64,000 nt of DNA from an uncultured Prevotellaceae bacterium (GTDB lineage Bacteria > Bacteroidota > Bacteroidia > Bacteroidales > Bacteroidaceae), in contig CADCEQ010000007.1 in assembly GCA_902800435.1 (NCBI GenBank), positions 1 to 64,000 on the forward strand, given 5' to 3'. Within the stretch, counting starts at the first letter, position 1. Each line of letters opens with the position of its first letter. The notes beneath the pieces are model-generated. The model worked only from the letters and a program-made list of their open reading frames with translations. It did no database searches and had not been told where the DNA came from. Both the position numbers and the translations under genes were made by a program. Positions 20,124 to 50,718 of the stretch are shown here, piece after piece.

Positions 20124-22550
20124 TCAGTACTCGTCGTTCTCTGTTCGGGCGATAATCTCGTTCTGAAGCTGCTCGGTCATGTCGTTGAAGTAGTCGCTGT
20201 AGCCGGCGACGCGCACCAGCAGGTCGCGGTACTCGTCGGGATGCTGCTGGGCATCGTGCAGGGTGGCCGTATCGACGATGTTGAACTGGATATGGTGACC
20301 GCCGAACTTGAAGTAAGTGCGGATGAGCGAGGCGAGCTTCCGCTGGTCTTCGTCGCGCTTCAGCAGCTGGGGGACGAAGCGGACGTTGAGCAGCGTGCCG
20401 CCGCTTTTCGTCTGGTCGAGCTTGCCGAGGCTCTTGATGACCGCCGTGGGGCCGTGGGTGTCGCTACCGTGGGCGGGACTGGTTCCGTCAGAGATGGCGA
20501 AATGGGCAAAGCGGCCGTTGGGCGTGGCGCCGCACACACTGCCGAAGTAGTTGTGGCAGGTGGTCGAGAGCATGTTCAGCTGCGTCAGTCCGCCACGGGT
20601 GTTGGGGCGTCCCTCGATGGCTTTCACCAGGTCGTCGTAGACGCGGACGGCAATCTCGTCGGCATACGGGTCGTCATTGCCGAAGAAAGGCGTGTGGTTG
20701 CGGATGTAGGCACGTTGAACGTTGAATGTTGAACGTTGAACGTTATCGCCTTGCTGCCCCCAGTTGCAGGCGCATGCCTCCAACATCTCGTCCATCGTGT
20801 AGCGTTTGTCCTCAAAGACGTGCTTCTTCAGGGCGGTGAAACAGTCGGTGATGGTGCCGAGGCCGGTACACTGGATGTAGGTGGTGTTATAGCGGGCGCC
20901 GCCGCTGTAGTAATCTTTTCCTTTCTCGATGCAGTCGTCGATGTAGAGACTGAGGAAGGTGGCTGGGGCGTAGAGCGAGAACATGCGCTCGATGTAGTTA
21001 TTTACCGAGAGTTTCAGGTTGACGAAGTACACCATCTGGCGGTGCCAGGCATCGTACAGTTCGTCGAAAGACTGGAATGTACGCGGGTCGCCGGTTTCCA
21101 AGCCGAGCTTCTTGCCCGTCTCGGGGTCGATGCCGTTGTTCAACGTTATCTCTAAGATCTTCGGGGTGTTCAGGTAGCCAGTCAGCAGGTAGGACTCCTT
21201 GCCGAAGGCTCCTACCTCGATACAGCCTGAGCAGCCGCCTTCGCGGGCATCCTCTATGGTTTTGCCCTCGCGCACGAGTTCCTTTATATAAGTGTCGGGG
21301 TTGAAGATGGAGGGGTAGCCGTGGCCCTGGCGGATGACCTTGATGCCCTCCAACAGGAAGTCGTCGGGCGTGTTCTGGGCGATGTGGATGGAGAGGCCGG
21401 GCTGTAGCTGGTGCAGTTCCTCTTGTATCTCCAGGATGATGAACGACAGCTCGTTGGTGGCGCTGCGTCCGTTGCGGTCCACGCCGCCGATGTTGATGTT
21501 GGTGAAGTCGTTGTAGGTTCCTGACTCCAAGGCAGTGACGCCCACCTTCGGCGGAGCGGGCTGGTTGTTGAACTTGATCCACAGACAGCTGAGAAGTTCC
21601 TTCGCCTCGTCTCGGGTCAGCGTGCCGTCCTTCAGACCCTGCTCGTAGAAGGGCCACAGATGCTGGTCAATATGTCCGGGGTTCATCGAGTCCCAGCCGT
21701 TCAGCTCGGTCACCGTGCCGAGGTGAACGAACCAGTACATCTGGATGGCCTCCCACAGGTCGCGGGGAGCGTGGGCGGGCACCCAGCGACAGACTGAGGC
21801 AATCTTCTGCAATTCCTTCTTCCGTTGGTTGTTGGTTTCGGCAGAAGCCATCTGCTCAGCCAGCTCGGCATGCCGCCCGGCAAAGAGGATGGCGGCGTCG
21901 CACGAAATGGCCATCGCCTCCAGCTCCTGCTGCTTGTCGGTAGCCTCGGGGTCGTTGATGTAGTCGAGACTCTTAATCTTCGCCTCGATGCGGGCCTTCA
22001 CGTCCAAGAGTCCTTCGTGGTACATCTTGCCGTCCATCGCCGTGTGGCCAGCGGCGCGCTGTTCCATGAACTCGGTGAACACACCGGCGTGGTAGGCCTC
22101 CTCCCATTCCTTCGAGACATGGTTGAAGATGCGCTCGCGCTGTGTCTTGCCCTTCCAATAGGGGATGACCTCGCGCTCGTAGGTGTCGATGTCCTGCTGC
22201 GAGATGGTATAGCGCTGCAGTTCCCGCTCGTTCAGCGTATGCAGGTCCTCTACCGAGTGGCACGTCAGTTCGGGGAACGTCGGCACGGCCTTCGGCTTCG
22301 GTCCGCGCTCGCCGACAATCAGCTCGTCCTCGCCTATATAGATGGTCTTCTTCTTGCAGATTTCGTAGAAGTTCCGCGCCCTCAGCACGGGTGTCGGCAT
22401 CGTGCCGTAGTTCTCCTTATAGAACGCCGTCTCAATCAGCGCCCGCTCTATCGAGAGCGTCGTCGGCGTGTCGAAGTTCTGCTGGCGCAGGCGGCGTATG
22501 CGGTCGTTCATGCCGCCCAGGTTTTCGGGATGTTTGATGGTGTAGTTCAT
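20124..22550 (-). CDS. hypD: Glycyl radical enzyme, probable trans-4-hydroxy-L-proline dehydratase
   Basis: 808 residues. Catalytic C443 in GGCSGCIEVGAFG with E445, and glycyl radical G783 in RVAGYSDYF. Using the C. difficile HypD numbering I recall (C434, E436, H160, D278, S334, F340, Y450), a constant +9 offset lands on C443, E445, H169, D287, S343, F349 and Y459; G765 and T645 map at +18, after a repeat-encoded insert (about 603-613). HypD dehydrates hydroxyproline to pyrroline-5-carboxylate in anaerobes. Its ATG abuts the stop of a Xaa-Pro peptidase gene, which would supply the substrate. It is not pyruvate formate-lyase, which has adjacent catalytic Cys-Cys. Confidence 0.85.
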   Translation of the reverse strand: MNYTIKHPENLGGMNDRIRRLRQQNFDTPTTLSIERALIETAFYKENYGTMPTPVLRARNFYEICKKKTIYIGEDELIVGERGPKPKAVPTFPELTCHSVEDLHTLNERELQRYTISQQDIDTYEREVIPYWKGKTQRERIFNHVSKEWEEAYHAGVFTEFMEQRAAGHTAMDGKMYHEGLLDVKARIEAKIKSLDYINDPEATDKQQELEAMAISCDAAILFAGRHAELAEQMASAETNNQRKKELQKIASVCRWVPAHAPRDLWEAIQMYWFVHLGTVTELNGWDSMNPGHIDQHLWPFYEQGLKDGTLTRDEAKELLSCLWIKFNNQPAPPKVGVTALESGTYNDFTNINIGGVDRNGRSATNELSFIILEIQEELHQLQPGLSIHIAQNTPDDFLLEGIKVIRQGHGYPSIFNPDTYIKELVREGKTIEDAREGGCSGCIEVGAFGKESYLLTGYLNTPKILEITLNNGIDPETGKKLGLETGDPRTFQSFDELYDAWHRQMVYFVNLKLSVNNYIERMFSLYAPATFLSLYIDDCIEKGKDYYSGGARYNTTYIQCTGLGTITDCFTALKKHVFEDKRYTMDEMLEACACNWGQQGDNVQRSTFNVQRAYIRNHTPFFGNDDPYADEIAVRVYDDLVKAIEGRPNTRGGLTQLNMLSTTCHNYFGSVCGATPNGRFAHFAISDGTSPAHGSDTHGPTAVIKSLGKLDQTKSGGTLLNVRFVPQLLKRDEDQRKLASLIRTYFKFGGHHIQFNIVDTATLHDAQQHPDEYRDLLVRVAGYSDYFNDMTEQLQNEIIARTENDEY
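20713..20747. repeat. Heptamer array (CGTTGAA, 5 units) inside the glycyl radical enzyme gene
   Basis: Units CGTTGAA, CGTTGAA, TGTTGAA, CGTTGAA, CGTTATC on the plus strand; on the coding strand GTTCAAC-type units. The same heptamer (GTTCAAT/C) fills the spacer at 47251-47280. It encodes a VQRSTFNVQR-like stretch at about residues 602-613. A one-unit slip would frameshift the gene before G783. Confidence 0.88.
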
Positions 22551-36369: not shown

Positions 36370-38226
36370 TTACTTGAGGGGCAGGTACCAGTTCTTCTCG
36401 TCGAGCAGCGAGACGGCGGGATGCTTGTAGGCCAGCTTGGCAGCAAGCCACTCACCGCCGTAGTTGGTGCTGTAGAGGCCTGCATGGTTCTTGTGGCGGG
36501 CAATGCGGGTGAGGTCACCGAAGCGGCAGCCCTCGAAGGCCAGCTCGAGTGCCATCTCGTCGCAGATGAGGTCCTCGACGGCATTGATGGTATCGGCCTT
36601 GGTGGTGCCTACGGGAGAGCCCTTGGCTGCAAGCTCAGCGAGCTTGCGACCTACGATGGCATCGTACTGATAGGGCGAGAAGGCGCCCTGGGTGTAGTAG
36701 GTGCCGCGGCTGTGGATGCCCCAGTTGTCCTCGAACATCGTGCTATTCTCTGCCGAGAGGAACGGAACAACATTGCGCAGCATCTCGACGGTCTTGGGCT
36801 GGATGTAGCGTCCGGACTCCAAGTCGGTGCTGTCGCCACGTGCCGTGTATGAGAGCAGGTCATCGTTGATACCGTCCTTGAGGATGGCAAAGGCAGCGTC
36901 AGGATAGCCCATGCGGTTGAGGGCCTCAGCCAGACGGAGGTAGACGGTGGCCGTGCGGTAGATGGGCACGTTGGCACTGTTGAACTTACGCATGACGGAG
37001 AACGAGGAGTCGTTCTTGGCAACCGGATACATGGTGTAGAAGCGGCGGAGGTCGCCCAACTCAGCAATACGCACAACGGTGGAGCCGCCCGTGGCAGCCG
37101 TGGGCGTGTAGTAATAGTCCTGAGCGTAGTTGAGGTCGGTGTAGGCCTTCGAGGCATCAATCTGGCGCTCCACGAGGTAGCGGGCATTCGACGATGCCGA
37201 ACCACCGGTGGTGCTGTAGAAGTCATAGCCGAAGTAGCGGGGCAACTCGGTTACGACACCACGCAGACGGTTGGCTGCCAGAGGAATGTAAGTGATGATG
37301 TCGTTGGTGCTCGTGATGCTGAAGATCTGGCTCCACTGGAACCCGCTGACGGTCATGCTGAACGCCGACGGCATCTTGTCGTCCAACGCTTGGCGAATCC
37401 AGCTTTCGTTTGGCTCAATATAAGCCTGGCGTATCGTCCACTGGTTGGTGCGCAGGAAGTTGAAGTAGTAGCGGGCAGCCAACTCATACTGATGGGTCTC
37501 GAGGAAGAGGTCGCCCAGGATGACGTCGACGGGAATCATGGCGCGGCTTGAGACGACGCTCTTCTCCTGCGGGTTCTCGCTGTCACTACTGTTGAGCACA
37601 CCGGCAGAGATGTTGCCGTAGGTCGGCACCGGGGTACCGCTGAAGCGAATCAGCTCAGGAGCCAGTGCGTCGCAGATGCCCTGGATGTCCTTGGTCTCGT
37701 GCTGGCTGTTGGCATCGCCAATACTGGTCAGCGGGTCGGTGAAGAAGGGCACGGAGCCGTAGTTCTTGGCCAGCTGCAGATAAGCCCATGCACGGACGGC
37801 CAGTGCCTCGGCATATTCGGGAATGGTCACGAGGCGGCTGCCTGTGCGCAACGTCGTATCGCGGTGGGCGATGAAGTAATTGCAGTTGTTGATGACGCGG
37901 TAGTAGACGTAGGCCGAGTCATACTTGTTGGAGGCATCGGCAGAGAAGTCGGCCAGCTGGCGCAGGTCCATCTCGGTATAGCTGTTGGTGGCTGTCAGGT
38001 CGCCACGCATTTCACCCACCATGACGTACTGGTCGGCCAGCATCTGCAGCCCCTTGAGCATGCCAAGGGTGTAGAACATGGAGTCGGTTTTCTGGTCGAG
38101 GGCCGGGTCAAAGATCTGGCGGTCACTGTCGGTCTCGAACATGTCGGAGCAGGCAGTGAGGGCTGCGGCACCGCCGCAGCACAGGAGACAGGCGGTGATG
38201 AGGGTCTTTATGCTTTTGGTAATCAT
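36370..38226 (-). CDS. SusD/RagB-family outer membrane lipoprotein (PUL pair 2)
   Basis: 618 residues from ATG 38226. Lipobox LTAC gives an acylated Cys at about 26 (CSDMFETD). Tetratricopeptide-like helices and RAWAYLQLAKNYGSVPFF are typical of SusD; C-terminal FEGCRFGDLTRIARHKN is also conserved. SusD lids bind glycans over the SusC channel. Paired with the SusC gene immediately upstream in the same transcript. The first 25 codons nearly match those of the fasciclin protein at 43333 although the mature proteins are unrelated. Last gene before the terminator. Confidence 0.93.
   Translation of the reverse strand: MITKSIKTLITACLLCCGGAAALTACSDMFETDSDRQIFDPALDQKTDSMFYTLGMLKGLQMLADQYVMVGEMRGDLTATNSYTEMDLRQLADFSADASNKYDSAYVYYRVINNCNYFIAHRDTTLRTGSRLVTIPEYAEALAVRAWAYLQLAKNYGSVPFFTDPLTSIGDANSQHETKDIQGICDALAPELIRFSGTPVPTYGNISAGVLNSSDSENPQEKSVVSSRAMIPVDVILGDLFLETHQYELAARYYFNFLRTNQWTIRQAYIEPNESWIRQALDDKMPSAFSMTVSGFQWSQIFSITSTNDIITYIPLAANRLRGVVTELPRYFGYDFYSTTGGSASSNARYLVERQIDASKAYTDLNYAQDYYYTPTAATGGSTVVRIAELGDLRRFYTMYPVAKNDSSFSVMRKFNSANVPIYRTATVYLRLAEALNRMGYPDAAFAILKDGINDDLLSYTARGDSTDLESGRYIQPKTVEMLRNVVPFLSAENSTMFEDNWGIHSRGTYYTQGAFSPYQYDAIVGRKLAELAAKGSPVGTTKADTINAVEDLICDEMALELAFEGCRFGDLTRIARHKNHAGLYSTNYGGEWLAAKLAYKHPAVSLLDEKNWYLPLK
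38162..38180 (-). promoter_or_regulatory. Hairpin in signal-peptide codons (susD 2)
   Basis: GCTGCGGC, ACC, GCCGCAGC: 8-bp perfect stem at nucleotides 47-65 of the coding sequence. Equivalent hairpins occur at 43269-43287, 45388-45404 and 47179-47197 with compensatory changes. Confidence 0.5.
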
Positions 38227-38260
38227 AATTCTCAATTTTCAATTATCAATTCTCAATTAG
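38227..38260. repeat. Heptamer array AATTNTC (4-5 units) filling the susC2-susD2 spacer
   Basis: AATTCTC, AATTTTC, AATTATC, AATTCTC, AATTAG. It starts at the base next to the susD ATG and ends within the susC stop codon. Confidence 0.9.
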
Positions 38261-41200
38261 AGGTTAATCTTAAGTCCGAGGGTGAAGGTACGGCCGAGGG
38301 CGATGTTGCCGGCGTCAATGCCCTGATAGAGCACGGCGTTGGCGACGCTTGCTTCGGGATCGTTGCCCAAGTAGCGGGTGACGGTCAGGAGGTTGTTGGC
38401 CTCTGCCCAGACGCTGAGGCCCTGGAGCCATGAATAGTTGACGGGTACGCGATAGTTGAGGCGTACGGTCTTCAGCCGCAGGTAGGAGCCATCCTCAATC
38501 CAGCGGTCGCTAAAGCGAGAGTTGCCCATGGGGTCGCCGTAGGTGACACGGGGAATGTCGGTCTGCTGTCCCTCAGCGCGCCAGCGGTTGGTCATGGCTG
38601 TCGTCTGGTTGTAGAAGTTGCTGCCGCTCTCGAGCAGTGAGCGCTGGTAGTTGAAGACATCGTTGCCCAGCGAGTAGTTCAGTCCGACGTGCAGGGTGAG
38701 GTTCTTCCAGTTGACATTGGCGAAGATATTACCGTAGATATCGGGGTTGGGGTTGCCAATGATGGTACGGTCAGCCTCACCGATAACGCCGTCGCCGTTG
38801 ATGTCGACGAAGCGCACATCGCCGGCCTTGAAGTTCTGGCGGGCTCCCGTCTCATCAATCAGGTAGAGATAGCCTGCCTTGCCTGCAGCGGCAGCTTCCT
38901 TGTCGTCGGCAAAGACGCCGTCGGTCTTGTAGCCGTAGAACATGCCGACTGGCTGACCGACGATGGTAGCAATATTGTCGGAGCCGTAGATGCTGGAAGT
39001 ATAGCCCTGAGCTGTACGCTGACCGTCGACATAGATGCGCGTTTCGTCGGGCAGGCTCTTCACCTTATTTACATAGTGACCTGCACTCACGCCCAACTCC
39101 ATATTGAACTGGCGGGTGACGATGGGCTTAGCCGTCAGCGTGACTTCGAAGCCCGTATTGTCGAGCGAGCCGCCGTTGCTCCAGTAGTTGTTGATACCTG
39201 CCACGGGATTCTCAAACGTCTTAAGGGTGAGCAGGTTCTTGGTGTGACTCATGTAATAGTCGAAGTCAAAACCAATGCGGTTGTTCAGGAAGTATGCCTT
39301 CAGACCAACATTCATCTTGCCGGTCTGCTCCCAGGTGATGCTCTCGTTACCGATATTGTCGAGCAGGGCAGCAGTTGACTTGTACAGGTATTTGGTGACG
39401 CTGAACGACGTACGGGCGGCATTGCCGGCGATGTCGTCGTTACCGGAGATGTCGTAGCCGGCCTTCAGAAGCAGGTAGCTGATAACCTTGTTCTTGGGGA
39501 ACCATGCCTCGTTGGTAAGCGCCCATCCCAGCTGGAGGCTGGGGAAGATGCCCCACTTCACACCGGCAATCTTCACGCCGCCGTCGGCCTCCTTACCGAA
39601 ACGGCTGCAGCTCTCGACGGCAAGTGTCAGCTGAGCGAAGTAGCGGTTGCGGAAGTTGTAGTCAACGTTGCCGTACCAGGTCATCGAGCGCCAGGAGTCA
39701 TCAGCACCAGTGGCGTCGATGAAGTCCATGTTGTTCGAGATGTTAGGCGTCTTGTCGTTACCAGCCGAGGAGTACTGACCCTCAGGCTCGTTGTCGTCGA
39801 AGGCAAACGAGGAGTAGCGGAAACCTGCGAAGGCGCTGACGAAGTGCTCGCGCAGCTGGCGGCTCCACTCCAGGCGGGTGTCGCTCATGACGGACGTCTC
39901 CTTCGAGAACATCGACTTCGACATGTTCTGCACGCGGCCTATACCCTCGATGAGGAAGGTCGGCATGCCGCCCTCAGGACGGTAGTAGCGCTGCGACACG
40001 CGGTCGAGCGTGTAGCTGAACGTCTCGGTCAGCGCGAGGTGGTCGTTGAACTCATAGCGCGGTGCGATGACCGTATTGAAGTGCGTCACCTCGACGCGGT
40101 TCTTGTTGATGGCATCACCATTGGCCAATAGGGCTGTGGGGTTACCAAGGGTAAGATCCTGGTCGAGCACGGTCAGGTAGTCGTCGGCATCGGAGAGCGT
40201 CGACGAGAGCTTGCGCGTCACATTATTAAATGTATAGGGATTGAGGAACGGCGACTTGACGAGTGCCAGGAACGTGGGTGACGAGATGGTACCCGTGAGC
40301 AGGCTCTCGGGTGCGCCGTTATCAAAGACATCGCGGTTGAGCTTCGTATACGACATATCGAAGCGGGTGGTAAGCCGGTTGATGATGTTGATGTCGGTAT
40401 TGAAGCGCACGTTCAGGCGGTCGAAGCCATTCCTGCGCGCCGTGCTCTTTCCGTCGGTATAGCCCAAGGAGAGATTGTACATACCCACGTCGTCACCACC
40501 CTGCACATTGATGTTGTAGTTCTGGTTGAGGGCATTCTCGTAGACCTCGTCCTTCCAGTCGGTGTCGTTGTGGAACTTGGCATAATAGTACTTCGACGGG
40601 TCGTCGACGAGGAACTTGAAGGTCTGCGGGTCGGTGTACAGGTTGATGTCGGGGTAAGATCCCAACATCTCGGAAGCGTAGACCCTGTACTGGGCGGCAT
40701 TCATCACGTCGGGCGTACGGGGCACGAGGGTGACGCCCACGCCGATGTTGGCATCGATACGGGTAGCCATGCTGTGTCCGCGCTTGGTTTCGATGAGGAT
40801 GACGCCGGCGGCGCCCTTGGCACCGTAGAGTGCAGTGGCGTTCTTCAGGACAGTAACCTTGCCGATGTCCTCGGGATTGATGTTCAGCAGCAGGTTGGTG
40901 TAGTCGCCATAGTGGAGCGACGAGCGCGTCTGCTGCATATCCTGCACGATGCCGTCGATGACTATCAGCGGCTGTGCATTGGCATTCAGCGAACTGAGAC
41001 CACGGACGAACATGGCAGCGCCGTAGCCGGGACCTCCCGAGCGGGTGATGCTGCGGACGTCGGCGCCCATCAGTTCCTCGATGTCGGTCTCGATGGTCTG
41101 CGATGTGGTGTTCTTAACATCGGCCGTCGCGGCAGCCACGATGTGCGTGGTGTTGTCGTACATGGGCTGGAACTTATCACTCAGCATCTCGATGGTGAGC

Positions 41201-41565
41201 GCAGCACCCTGACGGCCCAGGCCGACGTGCTGGCTCAGAAACTCCGGCGCATGGACGTAGAGTGCCGTGGCAAACGTCGGGACCTTGATGACGAACGTGC
41301 CGTCCTCTTCGGTCATGGCCGTGTAGTTCTTATCGTTCAGCGCCTGTATCATGACACCAGCCAAGGGCTTCTTGGTGGCAGCATCAACACACTGGCCCTT
41401 GACCTCGACGGTTGGATAAGTCGGGACCTTGACCGTCTTCTTCTTGTAGACGACCTGGACATCGTCGTCGTCATCCACGTCATCATCCTGTGCGTACGCA
41501 GGCATACCCAAGCAGAGCATGCTGAGAATGGAGAAATAAAGAATATGTTGTCTTTTCATTTTCAT
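38257..41565 (-). CDS. SusC/RagA-family TonB-dependent transporter (PUL pair 2)
   Basis: 1102 residues; starts at M1 or M3. Signal peptide about 1-25 (PAYAQ), followed by an unusual acidic run (about 26-36) and basic KKKTVKV. CarboxypepD_reg-like domain about 52-130 (VEVKGQCVDAATKKPLAGVMI), plug about 150-270 with the SusC signature PLIVIDGIV and LKNATALYGAKGAAGVI, then a 22-stranded barrel ending FTLGLKINL. Imports oligosaccharides with its SusD. It follows two fasciclin lipoprotein genes, from which it is separated by about 20 bp. Confidence 0.94.
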   Translation of the reverse strand: MKMKRQHILYFSILSMLCLGMPAYAQDDDVDDDDDVQVVYKKKTVKVPTYPTVEVKGQCVDAATKKPLAGVMIQALNDKNYTAMTEEDGTFVIKVPTFATALYVHAPEFLSQHVGLGRQGAALTIEMLSDKFQPMYDNTTHIVAAATADVKNTTSQTIETDIEELMGADVRSITRSGGPGYGAAMFVRGLSSLNANAQPLIVIDGIVQDMQQTRSSLHYGDYTNLLLNINPEDIGKVTVLKNATALYGAKGAAGVILIETKRGHSMATRIDANIGVGVTLVPRTPDVMNAAQYRVYASEMLGSYPDINLYTDPQTFKFLVDDPSKYYYAKFHNDTDWKDEVYENALNQNYNINVQGGDDVGMYNLSLGYTDGKSTARRNGFDRLNVRFNTDINIINRLTTRFDMSYTKLNRDVFDNGAPESLLTGTISSPTFLALVKSPFLNPYTFNNVTRKLSSTLSDADDYLTVLDQDLTLGNPTALLANGDAINKNRVEVTHFNTVIAPRYEFNDHLALTETFSYTLDRVSQRYYRPEGGMPTFLIEGIGRVQNMSKSMFSKETSVMSDTRLEWSRQLREHFVSAFAGFRYSSFAFDDNEPEGQYSSAGNDKTPNISNNMDFIDATGADDSWRSMTWYGNVDYNFRNRYFAQLTLAVESCSRFGKEADGGVKIAGVKWGIFPSLQLGWALTNEAWFPKNKVISYLLLKAGYDISGNDDIAGNAARTSFSVTKYLYKSTAALLDNIGNESITWEQTGKMNVGLKAYFLNNRIGFDFDYYMSHTKNLLTLKTFENPVAGINNYWSNGGSLDNTGFEVTLTAKPIVTRQFNMELGVSAGHYVNKVKSLPDETRIYVDGQRTAQGYTSSIYGSDNIATIVGQPVGMFYGYKTDGVFADDKEAAAAGKAGYLYLIDETGARQNFKAGDVRFVDINGDGVIGEADRTIIGNPNPDIYGNIFANVNWKNLTLHVGLNYSLGNDVFNYQRSLLESGSNFYNQTTAMTNRWRAEGQQTDIPRVTYGDPMGNSRFSDRWIEDGSYLRLKTVRLNYRVPVNYSWLQGLSVWAEANNLLTVTRYLGNDPEASVANAVLYQGIDAGNIALGRTFTLGLKINL

Positions 41566-41584
41566 TCAGTTTTGAGGGTAAGAC

Positions 41585-43333
41585 TTAATAGTTGCCTGTG
41601 TCGTATTTGTAGTCAGGATGCAGCTTGAGATAGTCGTCAAGCTCCTTCGGACGGAGGATGAGACAGTCTATGCGCAAGTTACGGTCGAAGTTGGCGCGCT
41701 CCCTTGAAGTGACAGAACTGTTGACCCTCAGGTAGGGATAGTAGTTGCCCGTGCCGTAATAGGCCATCGGGAACGTGAAGTCGCCCAGATAGATGGTGTC
41801 AACCTGCGCCGAGTCGCTGACAAACGCGCTCTCAGCCACCCAGCTGCGGTCGCCGTCCTGATTCTTACCGGACTCATCGGCAAAGCCCATTGTCACAGAG
41901 AAGCGATAAGGTTTGGTGGCATTCCTGGGATTGGTAATGTTGGCAGGAACTGTGACCATGTAGATGCTGTAGGTAGTTGAACGTACTTCCGGGAAGTAGA
42001 AGACAACGCCGGGGTTTGTGCTCTGGCTGATAGGCTGCACGTCGAGATAGGCGTTGGACGAGAGGCGGCCCGTCACGTCAGGATTCTGCGTACCGGGAGC
42101 CACGTAGATGCGCTGCGGCTCGTTCTCATTGGCCACATTGACTGCGCTGGCGATGGTGGCTCTGTTCTCGGCCTCTATCCGAAGCTCCGGGTTCCAGACT
42201 GTCCAAGTGCGCATGCGCAGGCTGTCGTCAGTCAGCCATACCCAGCCATTGCTCTTCGCAATGCGACGGGTGTTTTCCAACAACCGTGACGCATCCTCGG
42301 AATAGAATTTCACCTGAAGGGTGCTATAGAGTGAGTCGCAATGGAAGTTAGTTGCGGCATCAGGCGCATCCAACTGTCGGTTGTCGTACATGTTGTTGTT
42401 GAAGAAGAGGCTCGCTGTGAGCATTTGGTTGACGATAGAGTCCTGGAGATATTTGACATCCCTGATCTTGACGTCAACCTTCTTCCTTTCGGTTGTTGAC
42501 GTGTTCTCCATGAACTCAAACGACGGCACGTAGTGGAAGAACTTGGAAACGGTGGCCTTAGCCCTGTTCCATGCCTCGTTGGTAGGCACTATCATGGAGT
42601 AGTTGCTATCCTCGCGGTTGATTAAGGCAAAATAGCGAAGGAAGAGGTCGTTGTGCTCGTCGAAGATGGAGTCAAGGTACGTGATCTCGCCGTTCAGCGT
42701 CGGACCCTGCACGCTCTTCTGCTCATTGAGCTTCCTGACATCAAAGCTGTGAATATACGCACTGATGGAGTCGATGGGGTATTCATAGTTGTTCAGCGAC
42801 TCGTAGATGTTCTGCACAAACGGTATCTTGCCCTTCAGCGTATGGATGGTACCGTTGCCCGTTGCCACGTTAGCCTTGTCGATTCCTACGCCCTGAATGA
42901 CATAGCTGCCGGCGCCGCTGAAAAGCATCAGCTTCTCGTTCAGCGTGTAAACCCTTTGGTCGACAGCGCCAGAGGCGGGATAGTTGTTGCGGGCAATGTG
43001 GTTCTCGACAAACTCCTTCAGCAGACGGTCGCTACTCAGCGAAGCGAGTGTCTCATAATCAAAGGTGCCGTTGACTGGAGCCCAGACGGTGTAAGTCTGA
43101 GTGGCGTTGAGCACTTCGTCATAGCCTGCCTTCTTGAGCAAGGAGGCAAACTGCGACAAGTTCTCATTCTGCGAAATGTTCTGCCAGAGGGTGGCATGCT
43201 GAGTGTCGAGCAGCGACGTGTCGGCATCGTAGTGGTCGTTCCAGTCAGAGCAGGCCGCGAGGGCGAGTGCTGCGACGGTGCCGCAGCACAGCGAACAGGC
43301 GTAGAATAGGGATTTTATGCTTTTGGTAATCAT
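41585..43333 (-). CDS. Fasciclin (FAS1)-domain lipoprotein C of the PUL
   Basis: 582 residues from ATG 43333. Lipobox region ALAACSD places the lipidated Cys at about 28. FAS1-like modules are marked by YTVWAPVNGTF (about 85-95) and YSMIVPTNEAWN (about 250-262); a C-terminal beta-rich part (about 400-560) may bind a ligand. FAS1 domains mediate adhesion in many surface proteins; in PULs their exact role is unknown. Its leader (MITKSIKSL) is nearly identical to that of the SusD at 38226. Confidence 0.82.
   Translation of the reverse strand: MITKSIKSLFYACSLCCGTVAALALAACSDWNDHYDADTSLLDTQHATLWQNISQNENLSQFASLLKKAGYDEVLNATQTYTVWAPVNGTFDYETLASLSSDRLLKEFVENHIARNNYPASGAVDQRVYTLNEKLMLFSGAGSYVIQGVGIDKANVATGNGTIHTLKGKIPFVQNIYESLNNYEYPIDSISAYIHSFDVRKLNEQKSVQGPTLNGEITYLDSIFDEHNDLFLRYFALINREDSNYSMIVPTNEAWNRAKATVSKFFHYVPSFEFMENTSTTERKKVDVKIRDVKYLQDSIVNQMLTASLFFNNNMYDNRQLDAPDAATNFHCDSLYSTLQVKFYSEDASRLLENTRRIAKSNGWVWLTDDSLRMRTWTVWNPELRIEAENRATIASAVNVANENEPQRIYVAPGTQNPDVTGRLSSNAYLDVQPISQSTNPGVVFYFPEVRSTTYSIYMVTVPANITNPRNATKPYRFSVTMGFADESGKNQDGDRSWVAESAFVSDSAQVDTIYLGDFTFPMAYYGTGNYYPYLRVNSSVTSRERANFDRNLRIDCLILRPKELDDYLKLHPDYKYDTGNY
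43269..43287 (-). promoter_or_regulatory. Hairpin in signal-peptide codons (FAS1-C)
   Basis: On the coding strand GCTGCGGC, ACC, GTCGCAGC; an 8-bp stem with one G-U pair, at nucleotides 47-65 of the gene, the same position as in susD 2. Confidence 0.45.
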
Positions 43334-43368
43334 AATTCTCAATTATCAATTCTCAATTATCAATTCTT
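43334..43368. repeat. Heptamer array AATTNTC (5 units) between two FAS1 genes
   Basis: AATTCTC, AATTATC, AATTCTC, AATTATC, AATTCTT. The array spans exactly from the start codon of FAS1-C to the stop codon of FAS1-B (43367-43369). Confidence 0.92.
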
Positions 43369-45454
43369 AGTACATATCTTCCACGTAGCGAGTGTTGTTG
43401 TAGACGTTCTCCGGGCAGAACTCGATATAGTCGAGGTGGAACTGGTGGTGGTCGGCCTCAAGCACACTCTTGAAGCGTAGCCAGTACTCGCCCTGCTTGA
43501 ACTCCTGCTTGGCGATGATGCGGCGCAGGTCCTTGGGGTTGTTTCGGGCATAGTTGCCGGAATTCACACCCACGGTATAATAAAGAGGTCCGCGCATGTA
43601 ACCCTGGTTACGCATGTTGGCATCGGTCTCGATACCCTTGTCATCAAGCTTCTGCCAGTCGCACCAGCCGGTGATGGGGTCAGGATCAAGGTTGGCATTG
43701 TTTTCCGACACGTGACGCATGTCGAGCGGGATGTCAAGAGCCTTCATCGTGGTCAGGTCAGAGGAACTGCCAATATAGAACTGCAGCATACCGCGCTGTT
43801 CGTTACCCTCGGCCGTATAACCGATGCGCAGTTCGTAGGTGCCCTCCGGCACTGGCGGCAGGCGCAGGGCGAAGTCGTAGTTACCCTTACAATTGAACTC
43901 GTCGCCCTGATAGTTACTCCATCCGCTGTTCTGTCCTGAGAGGTAATAGAGGCGGGTGTCGTCGCCATTGTAGATGACGAGGTTCTCGAAGAAGCGCGGC
44001 GGTATGCGGATGTAACTGCCGCTGAGGTCGCCGTCAGTACCGGTCTTACCGCCATTAAGGGCATTGACCTCACTGTCGCTGATACGGCGGAAAGAGTTAG
44101 ACATCATCTCGCCAAAGAAGCTGGCATCATCCATGCGCAGACGCTCGTTGAGTGCACCCTGAGGCACTTTCTTGTCGTAGATGAGCGGACTGTTAATCGG
44201 GTGGATGTAGCCGTTGGCGGCAGCAATCTGTCCGCTGATACCCTTCATCTCGATACCCTCATAGAGCACGGCGTGCATCGCTGGCGAACCCAATTCAGCC
44301 ACCATGTCGGTAAGCGAGCTGTTGGCCGTCCAGCGGTTAATCATCAGCTTACCGCTGTTGCGGGTCACCTTGAGAAGTGTATAGGGCAACATGGTTTCAT
44401 AATACTCGACGAGCGTTACCTTCGATATCTGGTTGTGCGAGTTGACAATCTTATCGTAAGGCAGTTTGAACTTCAGGATGTGGTAGCGCAGGTACATGCT
44501 CAGCGTGTTCCACGGATCCAGATAGTCATCGTCGGTCTTAATCTGAATATGTTTGGTGCGGGCATAGTCGTACCAGCCCGTCTCCTGATCAGCACAGTGG
44601 CCGTAGACGCTGTCGGCATAGGCCTTCAGGTCCTCGATGTTATTGATGCCTTGGGCCGCCAGGGTCTCATCAGTCTCGGCAAAGATGGTGTAGCCCAGCT
44701 CACACTTCTCGGGCAGATAGAATCCGCGCCGGTTGTCGACGGGGTCGAAGTCGGTGCGGCTCTGATCGGAGAGCGAGTCGACAAGTCCCGTCAGCTGGAG
44801 TGCCTGACCGAAAATCTTGTATGTCTCGGGGCGGTTTGTGATTTCACCGGTGATGAGCATGTTGGAGCGGCGTATGACGCAGTCAATCTCGTGGAGCACG
44901 CCATTCTCCAACTCATTATCCATACTGGTAATGGTAGAATGACGGCTGACGACCACCTCGCCCGTTTCCGGGTCGATGCTAGTGTTGATGTCTCGGCCGA
45001 GCATCGTCTTGATAGTCATACCATTGCCCATGTTGACGCCCATGACCTCAGTGTTGAGGAGATGGAACAGGGCGATGTCAGTACAGAGCGAGTCGGTAAG
45101 TCCTTCAAGTCCGCGCTGGGTCATGCCGTTGTGATCAAAGTTCTTGTTCACCGTGTCATCGTAGAGGCTGTCGATGTATTCGGCCACGGCCTCGTTGGTA
45201 GGCGCAAAGCAGGTATAGGTGCCGTATGCAGCCAGAATCTTGTCGTAGCCGATTCGCGAGAGGATGTAGTTGAACGAACTGAAGCGGTCGCTACGGTTCA
45301 AAAGGTAGTCCTCGATAGTCTCGCCGGTGAAAGTGTAGAGGTTCGACTCGTCGATATCCTCCTTACAAGAGGTCAGCGGCGAGAGGACTGCAGCAGCGCC
45401 GCAGAACAGCCAACAGGTGGCGAGGATATGGTGTTTTATGCTTTTGGTATTCAT
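43367..45454 (-). CDS. Fasciclin (FAS1)-domain lipoprotein B of the PUL
   Basis: 695 residues. Lipobox LTSC with lipidated Cys about 30 (CKEDIDESN). First FAS1 module at about 45-190 (YTCFAPTNEAVAEYI); second with YTIFAETDETLAAQG (about 245). A C-terminal beta-sandwich-like domain (about 480-680, EGTYELRIGYTAEGNEQRG) could be carbohydrate-binding. Situated between SusD 1 and FAS1-C in the same orientation. The leader MNTKSIKHH and hairpin relate it to the SusD/FAS1-C leaders. Confidence 0.83.
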   Translation of the reverse strand: MNTKSIKHHILATCWLFCGAAAVLSPLTSCKEDIDESNLYTFTGETIEDYLLNRSDRFSSFNYILSRIGYDKILAAYGTYTCFAPTNEAVAEYIDSLYDDTVNKNFDHNGMTQRGLEGLTDSLCTDIALFHLLNTEVMGVNMGNGMTIKTMLGRDINTSIDPETGEVVVSRHSTITSMDNELENGVLHEIDCVIRRSNMLITGEITNRPETYKIFGQALQLTGLVDSLSDQSRTDFDPVDNRRGFYLPEKCELGYTIFAETDETLAAQGINNIEDLKAYADSVYGHCADQETGWYDYARTKHIQIKTDDDYLDPWNTLSMYLRYHILKFKLPYDKIVNSHNQISKVTLVEYYETMLPYTLLKVTRNSGKLMINRWTANSSLTDMVAELGSPAMHAVLYEGIEMKGISGQIAAANGYIHPINSPLIYDKKVPQGALNERLRMDDASFFGEMMSNSFRRISDSEVNALNGGKTGTDGDLSGSYIRIPPRFFENLVIYNGDDTRLYYLSGQNSGWSNYQGDEFNCKGNYDFALRLPPVPEGTYELRIGYTAEGNEQRGMLQFYIGSSSDLTTMKALDIPLDMRHVSENNANLDPDPITGWCDWQKLDDKGIETDANMRNQGYMRGPLYYTVGVNSGNYARNNPKDLRRIIAKQEFKQGEYWLRFKSVLEADHHQFHLDYIEFCPENVYNNTRYVEDMY
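45388..45404 (-). promoter_or_regulatory. Hairpin in signal-peptide codons (FAS1-B)
   Basis: On the coding strand CTGCGGC, GCT, GCTGCAG: 7-bp stem with one G-U pair at nucleotides 51-67 of the gene. Sequence diverged but pairing kept. Confidence 0.4.
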
Positions 45455-45467
45455 AGTTCTCTATTCT

Positions 45468-47240
45468 TTAATTCTTTGACGTAGACTTCTCCTGAATGAA
45501 GACCGGGTTCTGCCGCAGCAGCGTGTTGACCTTGGTCTCACTCTCCTGAATGGGCCAGTAGAGGAAAGGTTCGCTCTTCATCTTGTATGATACGGCATCG
45601 CCTTCGCCGCCCGAGCCATACTTGCGGATGACCATACGGAGCATCGGCGCATAGAGTTCGGGCCAAGCCTCAGTATCAGCCAGGCACTGGCGGGAGTTGA
45701 CGCCTTCCATGTGGCGGTAGCAGTAGCGCATGAGGTCGAACCAGCGTTTGCCCTCGAAGCACAGCTCACGTTCGCGCTCGGCGAGCACGAGGAGTTCCAT
45801 CTCTTCCTTCGACTTGAAATTCTCAAACTTCAGCGTGTCGGCAGCGTTCTTGAACATAGAGCGCTTGTTGACGGCCTGTACCAGGTTAAACGCCTTCTCG
45901 AGTGTCACGCGGTCACTGTCGTTAGCGGCTGTCTCTACCAGTGCCTCGGCCTGCATCAGCATGACGTCGGTCAGACGGTAAACAATCCAGTTCTGGCGGA
46001 ACTCATCGTAGCTGCGAGAGGTACTTTTGGCAGGACCAACCGTACTGGTCACGGCAACTACCGTCGACGAGGACTCCACCATCTTGCGAATGCTCATCTG
46101 CTGAGCCTCTTCGTTATTGGCATCATAGACGTTGTTCCAGAAGCGATAGTCGTTCTTTGACAGGTAGAGTTTCTGAGCCTCGACGGTGTTGGCATTGGTT
46201 GCCACCGAGTTGAATATCGGCGAAGCCATCAGGATTGACGGGGCATTAGCAGAGTTGCTCGTCTTATAATAGTAGTTCTCGAGTGCAGTGTTCGAGTTGT
46301 TGCGACCGTTGTACTGCCACTCAAGAATGCTCTCACGGGAGTTGCCGCCGTTGGGACTAAAAATGGAGGCCAGTGCCATATCGCCATCCTCCAGGTGATA
46401 GCGGTCCTCTTCCTTGCTGGTGATGTCTAACTCCTGGTAGAGCTTATAATAGGCATCCTTGGCATTGATGACGGAGTCACTGAAGGCGATGGCCTGCTGA
46501 TAGTCGGCCTGACTGTGGTTCATAGCGGCACGCCAAAGATAGATGTCGGCCATCAGGGCGTGGACGGCATCGCGAGTCATGTAGCCCCAGTTGCGCCAGT
46601 CGTTGCGCCCGTAGGAGCCGGACTTCATGATATAGCCGCGAGCCTCCTCAAGGTCTTTGAGACATTTCTCTAGCACAACGTCAGGTGCGCTCTGTGGCAA
46701 GATCTCTACCTGACTATCGTCCTCATAAGAGTGTTCCGTCAAAGGTACGTCGCGGAAGGCACGCACCAAATAGAAGTAGCACAGCGAACGCAGAGCCAGC
46801 ATCTGAGCACGTACTACCTGATAGTCACCCTCGGTGAACTCTGGGTCTTCAATCATCACCTCCGGGGCGTGGTTCAAGACAACGTTGCAGTTGTTGATGA
46901 CCTTGTAGAAGTTGCTCCAGTTGGCATACCTGTTGGTAGGCAGCAGGATGACAGCGCTGATGTTGTCGAGCGTGTTGTCGTTATAATCTTCCAGTTTCAC
47001 CAGCTCGTCAGAACGGTATGCTCCCCACATGATGGCGCTTTCCTGGATGCTCTTGTCAATCATGCTCAGATAGCATCCGTCCACCATCTGGTCAACATCC
47101 GACTTCTTCTTCCAGAAGTCCTCGGCGACGATGCGGTCCGTCGGGTAGATGGTCAGGAAGTCGTTGCAGGCCGTGAGGGCTGCGGTGACACCGCAGCACA
47201 GCAGACACTTCGCGATATATTTCTTTATATTTCTCTTCAT
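45468..47240 (-). CDS. SusD/RagB-family outer membrane lipoprotein (PUL pair 1)
   Basis: 590 residues from ATG 47240. Lipobox LTAC, Cys about 25 (CNDFLTIYP). Conserved SusD segments: NFYKVINNCNVVL, RAQMLALRSLCYFYLVRAFRDVPL, and C-terminal RERELCFEGKRWFDLMRYCY. Works with the SusC encoded directly upstream in the transcript. Spacer between them is a GTTCAAT heptamer array. Leader KKYIAKCLLCCG resembles that of SusD 2 more closely than expected for distant paralogues. Confidence 0.94.
   Translation of the reverse strand: MKRNIKKYIAKCLLCCGVTAALTACNDFLTIYPTDRIVAEDFWKKKSDVDQMVDGCYLSMIDKSIQESAIMWGAYRSDELVKLEDYNDNTLDNISAVILLPTNRYANWSNFYKVINNCNVVLNHAPEVMIEDPEFTEGDYQVVRAQMLALRSLCYFYLVRAFRDVPLTEHSYEDDSQVEILPQSAPDVVLEKCLKDLEEARGYIMKSGSYGRNDWRNWGYMTRDAVHALMADIYLWRAAMNHSQADYQQAIAFSDSVINAKDAYYKLYQELDITSKEEDRYHLEDGDMALASIFSPNGGNSRESILEWQYNGRNNSNTALENYYYKTSNSANAPSILMASPIFNSVATNANTVEAQKLYLSKNDYRFWNNVYDANNEEAQQMSIRKMVESSSTVVAVTSTVGPAKSTSRSYDEFRQNWIVYRLTDVMLMQAEALVETAANDSDRVTLEKAFNLVQAVNKRSMFKNAADTLKFENFKSKEEMELLVLAERERELCFEGKRWFDLMRYCYRHMEGVNSRQCLADTEAWPELYAPMLRMVIRKYGSGGEGDAVSYKMKSEPFLYWPIQESETKVNTLLRQNPVFIQEKSTSKN
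47179..47197 (-). promoter_or_regulatory. Hairpin in signal-peptide codons (susD 1)
   Basis: GCTGCGGT, GTC, ACCGCAGC on the coding strand: 8-bp perfect stem at nucleotides 44-62. Relative to susD 2 the innermost pair changes from C-G to T-A, a compensatory change. Confidence 0.5.
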
Positions 47241-47250
47241 AATAATCATT

Positions 47251-47280
47251 GTTCAATGTTCAATGTTCAACGTTCAATGT
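47251..47280. repeat. Heptamer array GTTCAAY (4 units) in the susC1-susD1 spacer
   Basis: GTTCAAT, GTTCAAT, GTTCAAC, GTTCAAT then GT, ending at the susC stop codon. The same word occurs inverted inside the glycyl radical enzyme gene at 20713-20747. Confidence 0.92.
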
Positions 47281-47281
47281 C

Positions 47282-50200
47282 TTAGAATCCCACTTGAATG
47301 TTCAGCGTAACCGACTTGCTTCGCGGTGTCTGAGAGTTATCGTAGGCAATGCCCCATGAACCGGGAGAGTGCTCCGGGTCTGTGCCGCTGTACTTGCTCC
47401 AGCAGAACAGGTTCTGGCCGGAGATACTTGTCGTCAGACGGTTCAGGCCGATAGATTTCAGCATCTTCTTCTTGAAGTTATAAGACAGCTGAATGTAGCT
47501 CATACGGACGAACGAGGCATCCTCGACGTAGCGGTCGCTGCCAAGCCAGTTGTAACCCGTGTCGAACATAGCGCGCGGAATCTGAGTCACGTCGCCGTTC
47601 TTGCGCCAGCGCCAATTCACGGCCGAGCTTTGGTTGTAGGCGTTGAACATCTCCTCGAGTCCCATCTTGGCCGAGTTCACAATCTTGATACCCTGACGGT
47701 AGCTGAAGCTGGTGCGAAGCGACCAGCTGTCATACTGCAGGTTGAAACCGAAACCGCCGTTGAGGTGGGGGTTGGAGTTACCAAGATAGACAATGTCGAG
47801 CGAGTTGATCTGTCCGTCATTGTTCACATCCTCATAGATGGCATCACCACCCTGGAACTTGTAGGTCGAGGTGCCGTCGTCGAAGTTATAGACCTGGCGG
47901 ATGGGTTCACCCTTGGAGTCCATCATGACGCGTCCCTCGTTGTCGATGGCGATAGGAGCGGTCTTACCCTTGGCCAGGAATTCGTTGTTGATATAGTTCT
48001 TCAGTTGGTCGCCTGTCCAGCCATTGCTCTCCTTCATATTGAGCAGGTACTCGTAGGTGTACTGGTATACACCCTTGTAGCGGAGTCCGTAGATGGAGCC
48101 GAGCGGGTTACCCTTCTGGATGCGGTTCAGATACTGTCCGCGCTTGCTGGGATCCCATTCACCGTTGATGCTCTCGAGCACGCTCTCGTCCATCTCGACT
48201 ATTTCGTTGAAGTTCTGCGAGATGTTGAAGTTAGCACTCAGCGAGAACTTTCCTACATGGATAATTCTGTTGGCCGAGACGTTCAGTTCCCATCCCTTGT
48301 TGGTCATCTCGCCGACGTTTGCCCACGACAGCGATGTGAAACCAGAGGTCGACGGTATGCGAACGCCTGACATCAGCAGGTCCTTCGTACGTTTGAAGTA
48401 GTAGTTGAAGTCACCAGTCAGTTTACCATCCAAGAAGCCGAAGTCGCCACCGAGGTTCAACTGCGAGGTGCGCTCCCACTTCAGGTTGTTCAACTGCAGA
48501 CCGTCCAAGTAGGTCACGCTGTGCTTGTCGGCGACGCTACCGTAGATACCCGACGTGTTGTACTTGGCATACTGCAGGTACTGCGAGCCAGGCTGGCGAC
48601 CTACGATACCGAACGATGCACGGAAGGCCAGCATTGAGAGCGTCGGCTTCAGTTTCTGCATAAACGGCTCATCGGAGATAATCCACTTGGTCGACAAGCC
48701 AGGGAACCAGCCCCACTTCTTCGAATCACCAAACTTCGTGGTACCGTCGGCACGGAGCGACGGGTCCAATACGTAGCGGCCTTTATAAGCAAAGTGGCCA
48801 GTGTAGATCATCGACATCGAGCGCCACTGTCCGTTGCCGGTACTCATGTTCTCGACATTCGTATCAACGGTAGGCGACGTTGTGCCGTTGGGGGCGTTGC
48901 GGTTTACCACGGTCTGGCTGTTGTCGTTGCCGCTGGTCAGCTCCCACTTACCAAGCATCTGGATTTTGATGTCCTGATTGTTGAAGTAGGGAACAAAGGT
49001 CAGCTGGTGGCGAGTTGTGAAGGCCAGCGAGTTGTAGTCATATACCTCCGAGCGGTTATAGTTGCCGTCCTCCCAGCCTTGAGTCGACAGCGAGCCGGGC
49101 CAGTACTTGGGCTCACTCTTCGAGAAGATGTCCATGTAGACCAGTCCGACGTAGTTCAGCTGGGTGGCCGATTCGTCCTTGCTCATCAGGTAGTAATCGA
49201 GACGGAACTCAGGCGAGATACGGTAGGTCTTCTCGTTGCGCCAGGCCTGTTCGGCTATGGCGACGGGGTTACCCAAGCTGCGGATGGCCGACAACTGTCT
49301 CGACGAGGTTCCTGCTGCCGACGAGCCTGCATCGTTCGAGGCACCTTCGGGCAGCATGATATAGAATTCATTGGTATCGTGGCCGTTAGCATCCTGACGG
49401 TAGACAGCCATGTTTGGCGACAGTTTCTGAGAACGACCCAGGATGTTGTCATCGTAGTTGCGCAGGTTGGCCGTATAGGTCAGCGGGAAGGTGGTGCGGA
49501 ATGTAATGCGGTCCGACACGAAGTAGTCGAGTGCCAGCTTCGTGGTGAAACGGTCGAGCTTCTGCTTGATGATGGTACCCGTCTGGTGGTCATAACCGGC
49601 CGAGACGCGGAAGTTGGCCTTCTCTCCACCACCGGTAAGCGTTAGGTAGTGGTACTGGCTCCAACCGGTCTGCTGTACCTCTTTCACCCAATCGGTGTTG
49701 TTGTTCCAGTTCTCGAACTCAGCCCACGAGCGATTGTAGTTGATCTCGTTGATGTTGGTCGTTGCCGTGGCGCTCTGGGCGGGGTTGTAGTACATCTCCT
49801 TCAGCATCATGGTGTAGTCGTCACCGTTCAGCAGGTTGTAGCCCTTGGGCTGCCATGAGGCCTGCACACGCAGCGAGTAGTCCACGCGGGTAGCACCGCG
49901 GGCACCACGCTTGGTGCGGATCTGGATGACACCATTGGCACCGCGCGAGCCCCAGACAGCGGTAGCGGCGGCATCCTTTAGTACTTGGATGTCCTCGATA
50001 TCGGAGGGGTTCACCGACAGCAGCGAGGCATAGGTCTCCTCGTTAGCATTCTGGAAGTCAAAGTTCTCGTCAGGGTTGTCGAAGATGTTGCCGTCGACGA
50101 CGATGAGCGGTTCGGCCGAGCCGTTGATACTGGTCACACCGCGCAGACGCATGGTCGTACCGGCACCGAGGTTACCAGAGTTGGCCACGATGTCGAGACC

Positions 50201-50683
50201 GGCAATCTGTCCCTGCAGGGCTTCGTCGGCCGTTGTGAAGGCCAGACCTTCCACCTCTTTCATGTTGAATGTCTGGGCGGCCACCGACACCTCACGCTCG
50301 GGGATGGCCAGACCACCCTGGTTGAACTTACGCTTGGCAGTGACGGTCACCTCTTTAATTTGTGTGGCGTCCTGCAACTTGATGTCAAAGCGGGTACGTG
50401 TGCCGATGGGCAGTATCTGCGTCTTGTAGCCCACGTACGAAATCTTCAGTTTGTTCTTCGTATTCTTGACGGCCATTGAGAAGTTACCGTTCAGGTCGGT
50501 CTGTGCAAACGAGACGTTACGGTTGTTGCCGTCCACCTCGACGACGTTACACATCATCACCGGACCGAAGGAGTCACTGATGGTACCCGAGATACGGGCT
50601 TCCTGTGCAACGGCCCTGACTGAGAGCAATTGACAACTGACAATTACCAGTCCCAATATTCTGTATAGTCTTTTGCTAATCAT
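47282..50683 (-). CDS. SusC/RagA-family TonB-dependent transporter (PUL pair 1)
   Basis: 1133 residues from ATG 50683; signal peptide about 1-24 (VRAVAQ). CarboxypepD_reg-like domain about 27-115 (ISGTISDSFGPVMMCNVVEV), plug with PLIVVDGNIFDNP and LKDAAATAVWGSRGANGVIQI, then the barrel ending KSVTLNIQVGF with a terminal Phe. No STN domain, so no anti-sigma signalling is expected. Placed after the large FAS1-A gene and before SusD 1. Confidence 0.95.
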   Translation of the reverse strand: MISKRLYRILGLVIVSCQLLSVRAVAQEARISGTISDSFGPVMMCNVVEVDGNNRNVSFAQTDLNGNFSMAVKNTKNKLKISYVGYKTQILPIGTRTRFDIKLQDATQIKEVTVTAKRKFNQGGLAIPEREVSVAAQTFNMKEVEGLAFTTADEALQGQIAGLDIVANSGNLGAGTTMRLRGVTSINGSAEPLIVVDGNIFDNPDENFDFQNANEETYASLLSVNPSDIEDIQVLKDAAATAVWGSRGANGVIQIRTKRGARGATRVDYSLRVQASWQPKGYNLLNGDDYTMMLKEMYYNPAQSATATTNINEINYNRSWAEFENWNNNTDWVKEVQQTGWSQYHYLTLTGGGEKANFRVSAGYDHQTGTIIKQKLDRFTTKLALDYFVSDRITFRTTFPLTYTANLRNYDDNILGRSQKLSPNMAVYRQDANGHDTNEFYIMLPEGASNDAGSSAAGTSSRQLSAIRSLGNPVAIAEQAWRNEKTYRISPEFRLDYYLMSKDESATQLNYVGLVYMDIFSKSEPKYWPGSLSTQGWEDGNYNRSEVYDYNSLAFTTRHQLTFVPYFNNQDIKIQMLGKWELTSGNDNSQTVVNRNAPNGTTSPTVDTNVENMSTGNGQWRSMSMIYTGHFAYKGRYVLDPSLRADGTTKFGDSKKWGWFPGLSTKWIISDEPFMQKLKPTLSMLAFRASFGIVGRQPGSQYLQYAKYNTSGIYGSVADKHSVTYLDGLQLNNLKWERTSQLNLGGDFGFLDGKLTGDFNYYFKRTKDLLMSGVRIPSTSGFTSLSWANVGEMTNKGWELNVSANRIIHVGKFSLSANFNISQNFNEIVEMDESVLESINGEWDPSKRGQYLNRIQKGNPLGSIYGLRYKGVYQYTYEYLLNMKESNGWTGDQLKNYINNEFLAKGKTAPIAIDNEGRVMMDSKGEPIRQVYNFDDGTSTYKFQGGDAIYEDVNNDGQINSLDIVYLGNSNPHLNGGFGFNLQYDSWSLRTSFSYRQGIKIVNSAKMGLEEMFNAYNQSSAVNWRWRKNGDVTQIPRAMFDTGYNWLGSDRYVEDASFVRMSYIQLSYNFKKKMLKSIGLNRLTTSISGQNLFCWSKYSGTDPEHSPGSWGIAYDNSQTPRSKSVTLNIQVGF

Positions 50684-50718
50684 AATTCTCAATTATCAAT
50701 TATCAATTACCAATTCAT
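50684..50718. repeat. Heptamer array AATTNTC (5 units) spanning the FAS1-A stop and susC1 start
   Basis: AATTCTC, AATTATC, AATTATC, AATTACC, AATTCAT. The array begins next to the susC ATG and continues into the FAS1-A gene, where it encodes the last residues (ELVIDN) and the stop codon. Confidence 0.92.

Follow-up and report, generated by a model that had tools for sequence, protein, structure and literature searches.

Several gene junctions in a glycan-uptake operon of an uncultured Prevotellaceae bacterium are occupied by short tandem arrays of 7-bp units, and these heptamer spacers are probably more than plain filler and probably not a fast mutation switch. The operon lies on the minus strand of the window, by which is meant the whole 64,000-nucleotide stretch analysed (positions 1 to 64,000 of contig CADCEQ010000007.1, assembly GCA_902800435.1), in the order GH2, FAS1a, SusC1, SusD1, FAS1b, FAS1c, SusC2, SusD2, with the Pfam families beta-galactosidase, fasciclin, TonB plug and SusD represented across it. 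The explanation we favour has three parts, namely that the arrays represent, in this operon, a dispersed class of intergenic heptamers which turns over at Prevotella gene junctions, that an array may be copied occasionally between genes as part of a 5' block, and that at SusC1 it contributes to a hairpin which may couple translation to that of the preceding gene. Taken jointly these stand at about an even chance of being right.

The four arrays pointed out in an initial annotation of this operon do exist, at positions that agree with it to within a few bases (Table 1), and its broader statement that the spacers are heptamer arrays stands at four of the seven junctions and falls at GH2/FAS1a, SusD1/FAS1b and FAS1c/SusC2. 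Read on the sense strand the units are AATTGAN and ATTGAAC, in about 4.6-5 copies per array at a match of 88-92%, and the window arrays are not near-perfect many-copy repeats of the sort seen at contingency (phase-variation) loci. A scan of periods 4-21 found strong arrays in the window only at period 7 (7 arrays), 14 (5) and 21 (3), none came up in five order-1 Markov simulations whatever the period, and so the four arrays are not a matter of chance. The three strong period-7 arrays beyond the operon lie at about 2773-2811, 5815-5872 and 20712-20744. At 50684 the array does, as was claimed, code for the C-terminus of the upstream fasciclin gene, whose final five residues, LVIDN, lie in the array together with its TGA stop at 50696-50698.

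Comparisons were made with one genome per species, and shared sites were judged between sister species. A search with the SusD1 protein returned 19 loci, all in Prevotella or Prevotellaceae assemblies and several of them from rumen, abomasum or omasum, and 18 relatives (L031-L048) have the operon, in full or as far as their contig reaches. The nearest genome compared, G001, is the assembly of L031 (its contig C152 has the L031 SusD2 block at 100%) and aligns with the window in large blocks at 87-97% nucleotide identity, about 92%.

A genome search for period-7 arrays, which the initial annotation had proposed, bears out their clustering at gene junctions: 125 of 175 are intergenic, where about 28 were expected from intergenic fractions of 0.06-0.24 in seven sample sets, genes being called with a small home-made gene finder. 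The intergenic share is 4/7 in the window, 14/20 in syntenic relatives, 5/12 in G001, 10/17 in G035 and 29/30 in G010, and 48/65 and 15/24 in G217 and G119, two genomes picked for their abundance of one array pattern. Samples with poorer gene calls gave 6/6 for mixed Prevotella (intergenic fraction 0.24), 2/2 for other genera of the order (0.42) and 1/2 for more of G001. At a lower threshold, array coverage peaks directly past stop codons, at 46 per mille of positions (periods 8 and 9 give 10 and 5), has a second peak of 27 per mille immediately upstream of starts and falls inside genes; this metagene is built on the genes of the window, syntenic relatives, G001, G035 and G010 with their starts trimmed, and arrays in signal peptides are not visible in it. 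One AATTGAN pattern is found in 110 of 200 same-genus genomes, in 0 to 228 copies per genome, and its reversed control is at zero in most, though not all, of them.

The arrays are also oriented. Among 112 arrays at codirectional junctions, stops in all three frames are found on the sense strand only in 60, on the antisense strand only in 18, on both in 14 and on neither in 20, a count which excludes arrays that lie more than 75% within called genes or are centred in one. Sense-only and antisense-only arrays number 4 and 4 of 14 at convergent junctions and 7 and 4 of 14 at divergent ones, and 28 of the 33 arrays spanning almost from stop to start are purine-rich in sense. The arrays may well arise by replication slippage at junctions, where the sequence frequently includes a stop codon; most coding sequence would exclude them, and those in sense orientation would make the leader AU-rich and put stops in each of its three frames.

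Similarity between junctions extends past the start codon. Different genes of one operon were aligned over -40 to +160 around their starts, in the window and ten relatives, and pairs scoring above shuffles are reported. In the window FAS1c and SusD2 score 142 from -32 to about +130, against a best of 31 among 100 shuffles, and SusC1 and SusD2 are alike at 49/54 positions from -32 to about +24. For the lipoprotein genes SusD1, FAS1b, FAS1c and SusD2 of the window and relatives, blocks of different genes score 22.9 within a species and 14.7 between species (orthologs 16.9), with 0/500 label permutations reaching 22.9; in the same order the spacer alone gives 9.4, 8.1 and 9.1 and the signal-peptide part 16.5, 10.4 and 11.9 (0/500 permutations each), whereas the stretch from +150 to +262 gives 8.6, 8.5 and 49.2 (95/500). 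This is the pattern that gene conversion would leave, the 5' blocks of different genes being more alike within than between species and the mature parts not. A non-orthologous gene is the best match for 22/75 blocks and for 0/75 mature stretches, the latter matching an ortholog in 75/75. The SusD1 block of L031 scores 25 against its window ortholog, and against SusD2 it scores 71 (that of the window) and 67 (that of L031), and the mature part of the same gene scores 79, 11 and 11. Elsewhere, neighbouring signal-peptide genes with no detected mature similarity score at least 26 in 16/363 pairs, compared with 1/3979 random same-genome pairs; the loci concerned include L124, a second SusC/SusD/fasciclin operon, and L091, which is similar by look.

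As far as sequence can tell, block sharing between non-homologous neighbours is real but occasional. We infer that a 5' block, made up of spacer, start codon and export signal and with the array as its upstream part, is copied from time to time from one neighbouring gene to another, perhaps by short-tract recombination in which the repeats serve as homology. By such copying the leader and signal peptide could be swapped jointly while the mature protein is unchanged. A cassette mobile across the genome was considered and rejected: the start block GAATTATGATTACCAAAAGCAT (2 mismatches allowed) is present in just 4/60 relatives, and among 34 matches to the SusD2 block in G001 those of at least 72/112 bases are confined to contigs C152, C34, C23 and C142, the others being array-only or signal-peptide-only fragments, and so the SusD2 block is not a genome-wide element.

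Arrays also occur inside signal peptides. A period-7 array at +9 to +100 is present in 13 of 1301 genes, every one of them belonging to the 554 called signal-peptide genes (9 in the window and relatives, 2 in G001 and 2 in G035, with 0/716 in G010, G217, G119 and the mixed sample); the starts in this count were set by a crude home-made signal-peptide rule which favours finding such arrays, and when starts are extended to upstream ATGs 15 arrays fall in the first 90 nt and 18 in the remainder (879 genes). Several of the signal-peptide arrays are inverted copies of the spacer preceding their own start. In the set from which the test arose, 6/149 genes have an inverted spacer match scoring at least 14, against 11/1184 swapped pairs; other stretches give 5/405 against 14/29004. 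At a score of at least 12 they occur in 15/554 called signal-peptide genes (swapped pairs 27/2700, p 0.003; same-strand matches 5/554), and genes without a called signal peptide have no clear excess at that score (2/747; swapped 6/3650). The cases are not all independent, because related species repeat some events, and at 15/554 they are a minority, which rules out signal-peptide hairpins as a general rule. Counting all surroundings, an inverted partner lies no more than 150 bases away for 39/177 arrays (12/177 with flanks swapped) and a direct one for 23/177 (10 with flanks swapped).

Two other arrangements of inverted arrays were seen. At L099:10580-10796 very long inverted AGTGAAG arrays flank a gene start, and the downstream arm codes for SSLFTLHSSLPTLHSS-type repeats past the signal peptide. 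In genome G119, by eye, inverted heptamer arrays flank a similar core of about 45-60 bases (GAGAATA...ATATCTC) at L199:1655-1771, L199:16944-17060, L204:4430-4600, L204:6345-6457 and L204:15748-15866; these bracketed cores might be a small mobile element, and a simple pattern retrieved only 1 of the 5.

At SusC1 the leader array is mirrored in the signal-peptide coding region, and the two copies are predicted to pair in a continuous helix of 22 bp, whose loop holds the AUG (50681-50683) and whose 5' arm holds the FAS1a stop. Predicted pairing of the leader across the SusC1 start is 0.75 in the window, 0.79 in L031, 0.80 in L032 and 0.69 in L046, where 150 other signal-peptide genes have a mean of 0.16 and a 99th percentile of 0.52, and the observed pairing is attained by 1, 0, 1 and 4 of 100 synonymous shuffles respectively. 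In all four the FAS1a stop lies inside the array, and the predicted helix encloses the start and takes in the end of the upstream gene. The pairing register differs among the four aligned orthologs and so no compensatory (covariation) support is claimed for the helix. Folding predicts no comparable hairpin at the window's three other array junctions (z 0.17, 0.75 and 1.17).

In translational-coupling hairpins a start codon is held in a hairpin that extends over the last part of the gene before it. The SusC1 structure resembles these in that the start lies within a predicted hairpin reaching into the upstream gene end, and differs in that its predicted arms are heptamer repeats of which the 3' one codes for a signal peptide; a stop in the stem and an AUG in the loop is the arrangement that translational coupling would need. 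The hairpin would hold back independent initiation at SusC1 and a ribosome completing FAS1a would unfold it, in which case SusC1 synthesis would follow FAS1a synthesis. Coupling via ribosomes finishing FAS1a seems the most likely mechanism at the predicted hairpin, by which the amount of SusC made could be geared to the preceding gene. A report on Flavobacterium johnsoniae ties structure near the start to lower initiation, and adenines at -3, -6, -12 and -13 to higher initiation (PMC6847099). The idea that the arrays keep adenines in phase with these positions was rejected, 65/128 being in register (permutation mean 55.6, p 0.06; 32 distinct arrays of 39).

Several observations weigh against the explanation we favour. 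An ortholog is the best match for 53/75 blocks, the non-orthologous best matches are in another species for 19/75 and within the own species for just 3/75, and of these 22 matches 10 score 35 or more and 12 are weak, at 16-29. The 16 neighbour pairs found elsewhere come from 4 loci only (7 from L124, 3 from L091, 5 from L200 and 1 from L205), and those of L200 are possibly remote homologs. The window hairpin region does not stand out in total folding energy (z -1.38, and z -0.19 versus synonymous shuffles), and of the 13 inverted-copy genes 6 are without significant pairing across the start (three in L038 and one each in L039, L040 and L091) and 2 are borderline (L124 and L099). By eye, the AATTGAN array is missing from the FAS1a/SusC1 junction in 13/16 relatives. 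The stop-bearing strand of the 5815 array is the antisense one, unlike at most junction arrays.

One and the same junction carries, in different species, AATTGAN, ATTGAAC, AAGTGAG, TAATTAG or TAAATGA heptamers, GC-rich palindromic repeats, or none. That unrelated repeats substitute for each other at one site is what would be seen if the arrays were neutral filler, slippage products tolerated at junctions and at permissive 5' ends with no translational role, and the known over-representation of heptamers, for which slippage has been suggested (PMC4692102), the patchy occurrence of the AATTGAN pattern across the genus and the minority standing of arrays among signal-peptide genes all fit with this. 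The sense-strand orientation bias and the four SusC1 hairpins above the 99th percentile of other signal-peptide genes speak against it, although a bias in where slippage starts could also give both, and neutral filler is possible though on balance unlikely.

The initial annotation had proposed a possible contingency-like tuning by unit number; in its strong form, frequent changes of unit number within populations would set the intercistronic distance and the translation of the next gene. The tandem units do sit in initiation regions, and change by whole units is possible, the 5815 array being 14 bp (two heptamers) longer in the window than in G001; hypervariable unit number is not supported between sister species. 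The arrays are short and imperfect, those common to sister species are of equal length at 3/4 sites with point changes only (the 50684 and 38227 arrays in the window, L031 and L032, and the SusC1/SusD1 array in L031 and L032), and the commoner change between species is for an entire spacer to be gained, lost or replaced. Because spacers swap between species and shared arrays are mostly constant in length, slow gain, decay and replacement appears to fit the turnover better than a hypermutable switch, and tuning by frequent unit change is quite improbable. That array RNA is recognised by a protein, as might be imagined from the similar position of repeats just before starts (PMC4679880) and from an RNA-binding protein that controls polysaccharide use in Bacteroides (PMC11697453), is highly improbable, since the unit sequence varies between species and junctions and so leaves no single sequence to recognise, and an Rfam scan of 36000-58000 for known RNA elements had zero matches at the gathering threshold.

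In L044 and L045 GC-rich palindromic repeats occupy several operon junctions, and the four lipoproteins there have signal peptides in common, such as APLTLGGVGGGLL, apparently derived from the junction palindromic repeat.

A further-reaching version of the explanation by dispersed arrays, copied blocks and a coupling hairpin would make the arrays swappable export front-end parts of glycan-uptake genes, giving a leader in sense and the hydrophobic core of a signal peptide in antisense, tying SusC translation to the preceding gene by the hairpin that the two form, and spreading by recombination. It is put forward from the sequences as a tentative and rather unlikely proposal. Recombination between the repeated front ends of neighbours would let leader and signal peptide evolve jointly and apart from the proteins they serve; if true, signal peptides could be built from simple repeats, and glycan-uptake genes would have in their front ends a shared, recombining resource.

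Intergenic heptamer arrays are themselves a known kind, because both heptamer over-representation (PMC4692102) and arrays before starts (PMC4679880) have already been reported. TAACTGA arrays, for which a translational role has been proposed, precede starts in Beggiatoaceae, Cyanobacteria and five Bacteroidetes (MacGregor 2015, PMC4679880). As here they are short intergenic arrays of 7-bp units, some overlap the end of the upstream gene, and they mostly face a start codon a few bases downstream, a placement matched by the intergenic excess and sense bias of the present arrays. In contrast, units here differ and vary by species, with TAACTGA itself in 0/7 window arrays and its relatives CAGTTGA/CAACTGT in G010 and G119, and the arrays are tied to signal peptides and shared blocks, neither of which PMC4679880 names in such terms. 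The Xanthomonas GGGAATC and Nostoc GGGGA(C/T)T repeats (PMC4692102) are likewise intergenic heptamers that vary among close relatives, and polymerase slippage is suggested for them, but they are G-rich and quadruplex-forming where those here are A+T-rich and stop-codon-bearing. The 7-bp repeats of the Haemophilus hmw contingency loci are also tandem units 5' of surface protein genes, whereas the arrays here are short, imperfect and mostly constant in unit number between sister species. What looks new is the 5' block shared by non-homologous operon genes and the inverted spacer copy in the SusC1 signal peptide with its predicted stop-in-stem hairpin; among titles and abstract openings, a search outside which most subscription journals lie, there were no heptamer-derived signal peptides, shared spacer-signal blocks in Bacteroidetes or stop-in-stem hairpins. 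Many bacteria have an excess of heptamer arrays for which no role is agreed, and here the arrays are tied to a probable, occasional exchange of blocks between unrelated neighbouring genes and to a predicted stop-in-stem hairpin.

Table 1. Coordinates of arrays, 5' blocks, predicted hairpin arms and operon genes in the window
Feature	Position	Strand	Basis
AATTGAN array between FAS1a and SusC1, including last FAS1a codons and stop	50684..50715	-	sequence, period scan, comparison with relatives
ATTGAAC array between SusC1 and SusD1	47246..47277	-	sequence, period scan, comparison with relatives
AATTGAN array between FAS1b and FAS1c	43334..43365	-	sequence, period scan, comparison with relatives
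AATTGAN array between SusC2 and SusD2	38227..38258	-	sequence, period scan, comparison with relatives
FAS1c 5' block (-32..+133), matches SusD2 block at 126/158 positions	43201..43365	-	alignment
SusD2 5' block (-32..+129), matches FAS1c block	38098..38258	-	alignment
SusC1 start codon and signal peptide (MISKRLYRILGLVIVSCQLLSVRAVA; peptide end by eye)	50606..50683	-	signal-peptide rule, alignment
5' arm of predicted 22-bp helix, includes FAS1a stop 50696-50698	50690..50711	-	folding prediction
3' arm of predicted helix, inverted heptamer copy within SusC1 signal-peptide coding region	50625..50646	-	folding prediction, inverted-match scan
FAS1a, fasciclin-domain gene	50696..53587	-	ORF list and Pfam
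SusC1, TonB-dependent receptor plug domain	47282..50683	-	ORF list and Pfam
SusD1, SusD family	45468..47249	-	ORF list and Pfam
FAS1b, fasciclin-domain gene	43367..45454	-	ORF list and Pfam
FAS1c, fasciclin-domain gene	41585..43333	-	ORF list and Pfam
SusC2, TonB-dependent receptor plug domain	38257..41565	-	ORF list and Pfam
SusD2, SusD family	36370..38226	-	ORF list and Pfam

Beyond the operon, the array at 5815-5872 is of GGTGAAG units and separates two minus-strand genes, and many similar arrays occur elsewhere in G001. That at 20712-20744 is in frame within gene 20124-22550, by look one for a glycyl-radical enzyme, and G001 has a GC-rich palindromic stretch at this place. The GGTGATG array at 2773-2811 is in frame within the open reading frame 1822-3168; G001 aligns on either side of it, but the array stretch differs in length. 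A large tandem repeat of 69/207 bp occupies 13280-14158 in a minus-strand gene, by look one for a leucine-rich-like repeat protein.

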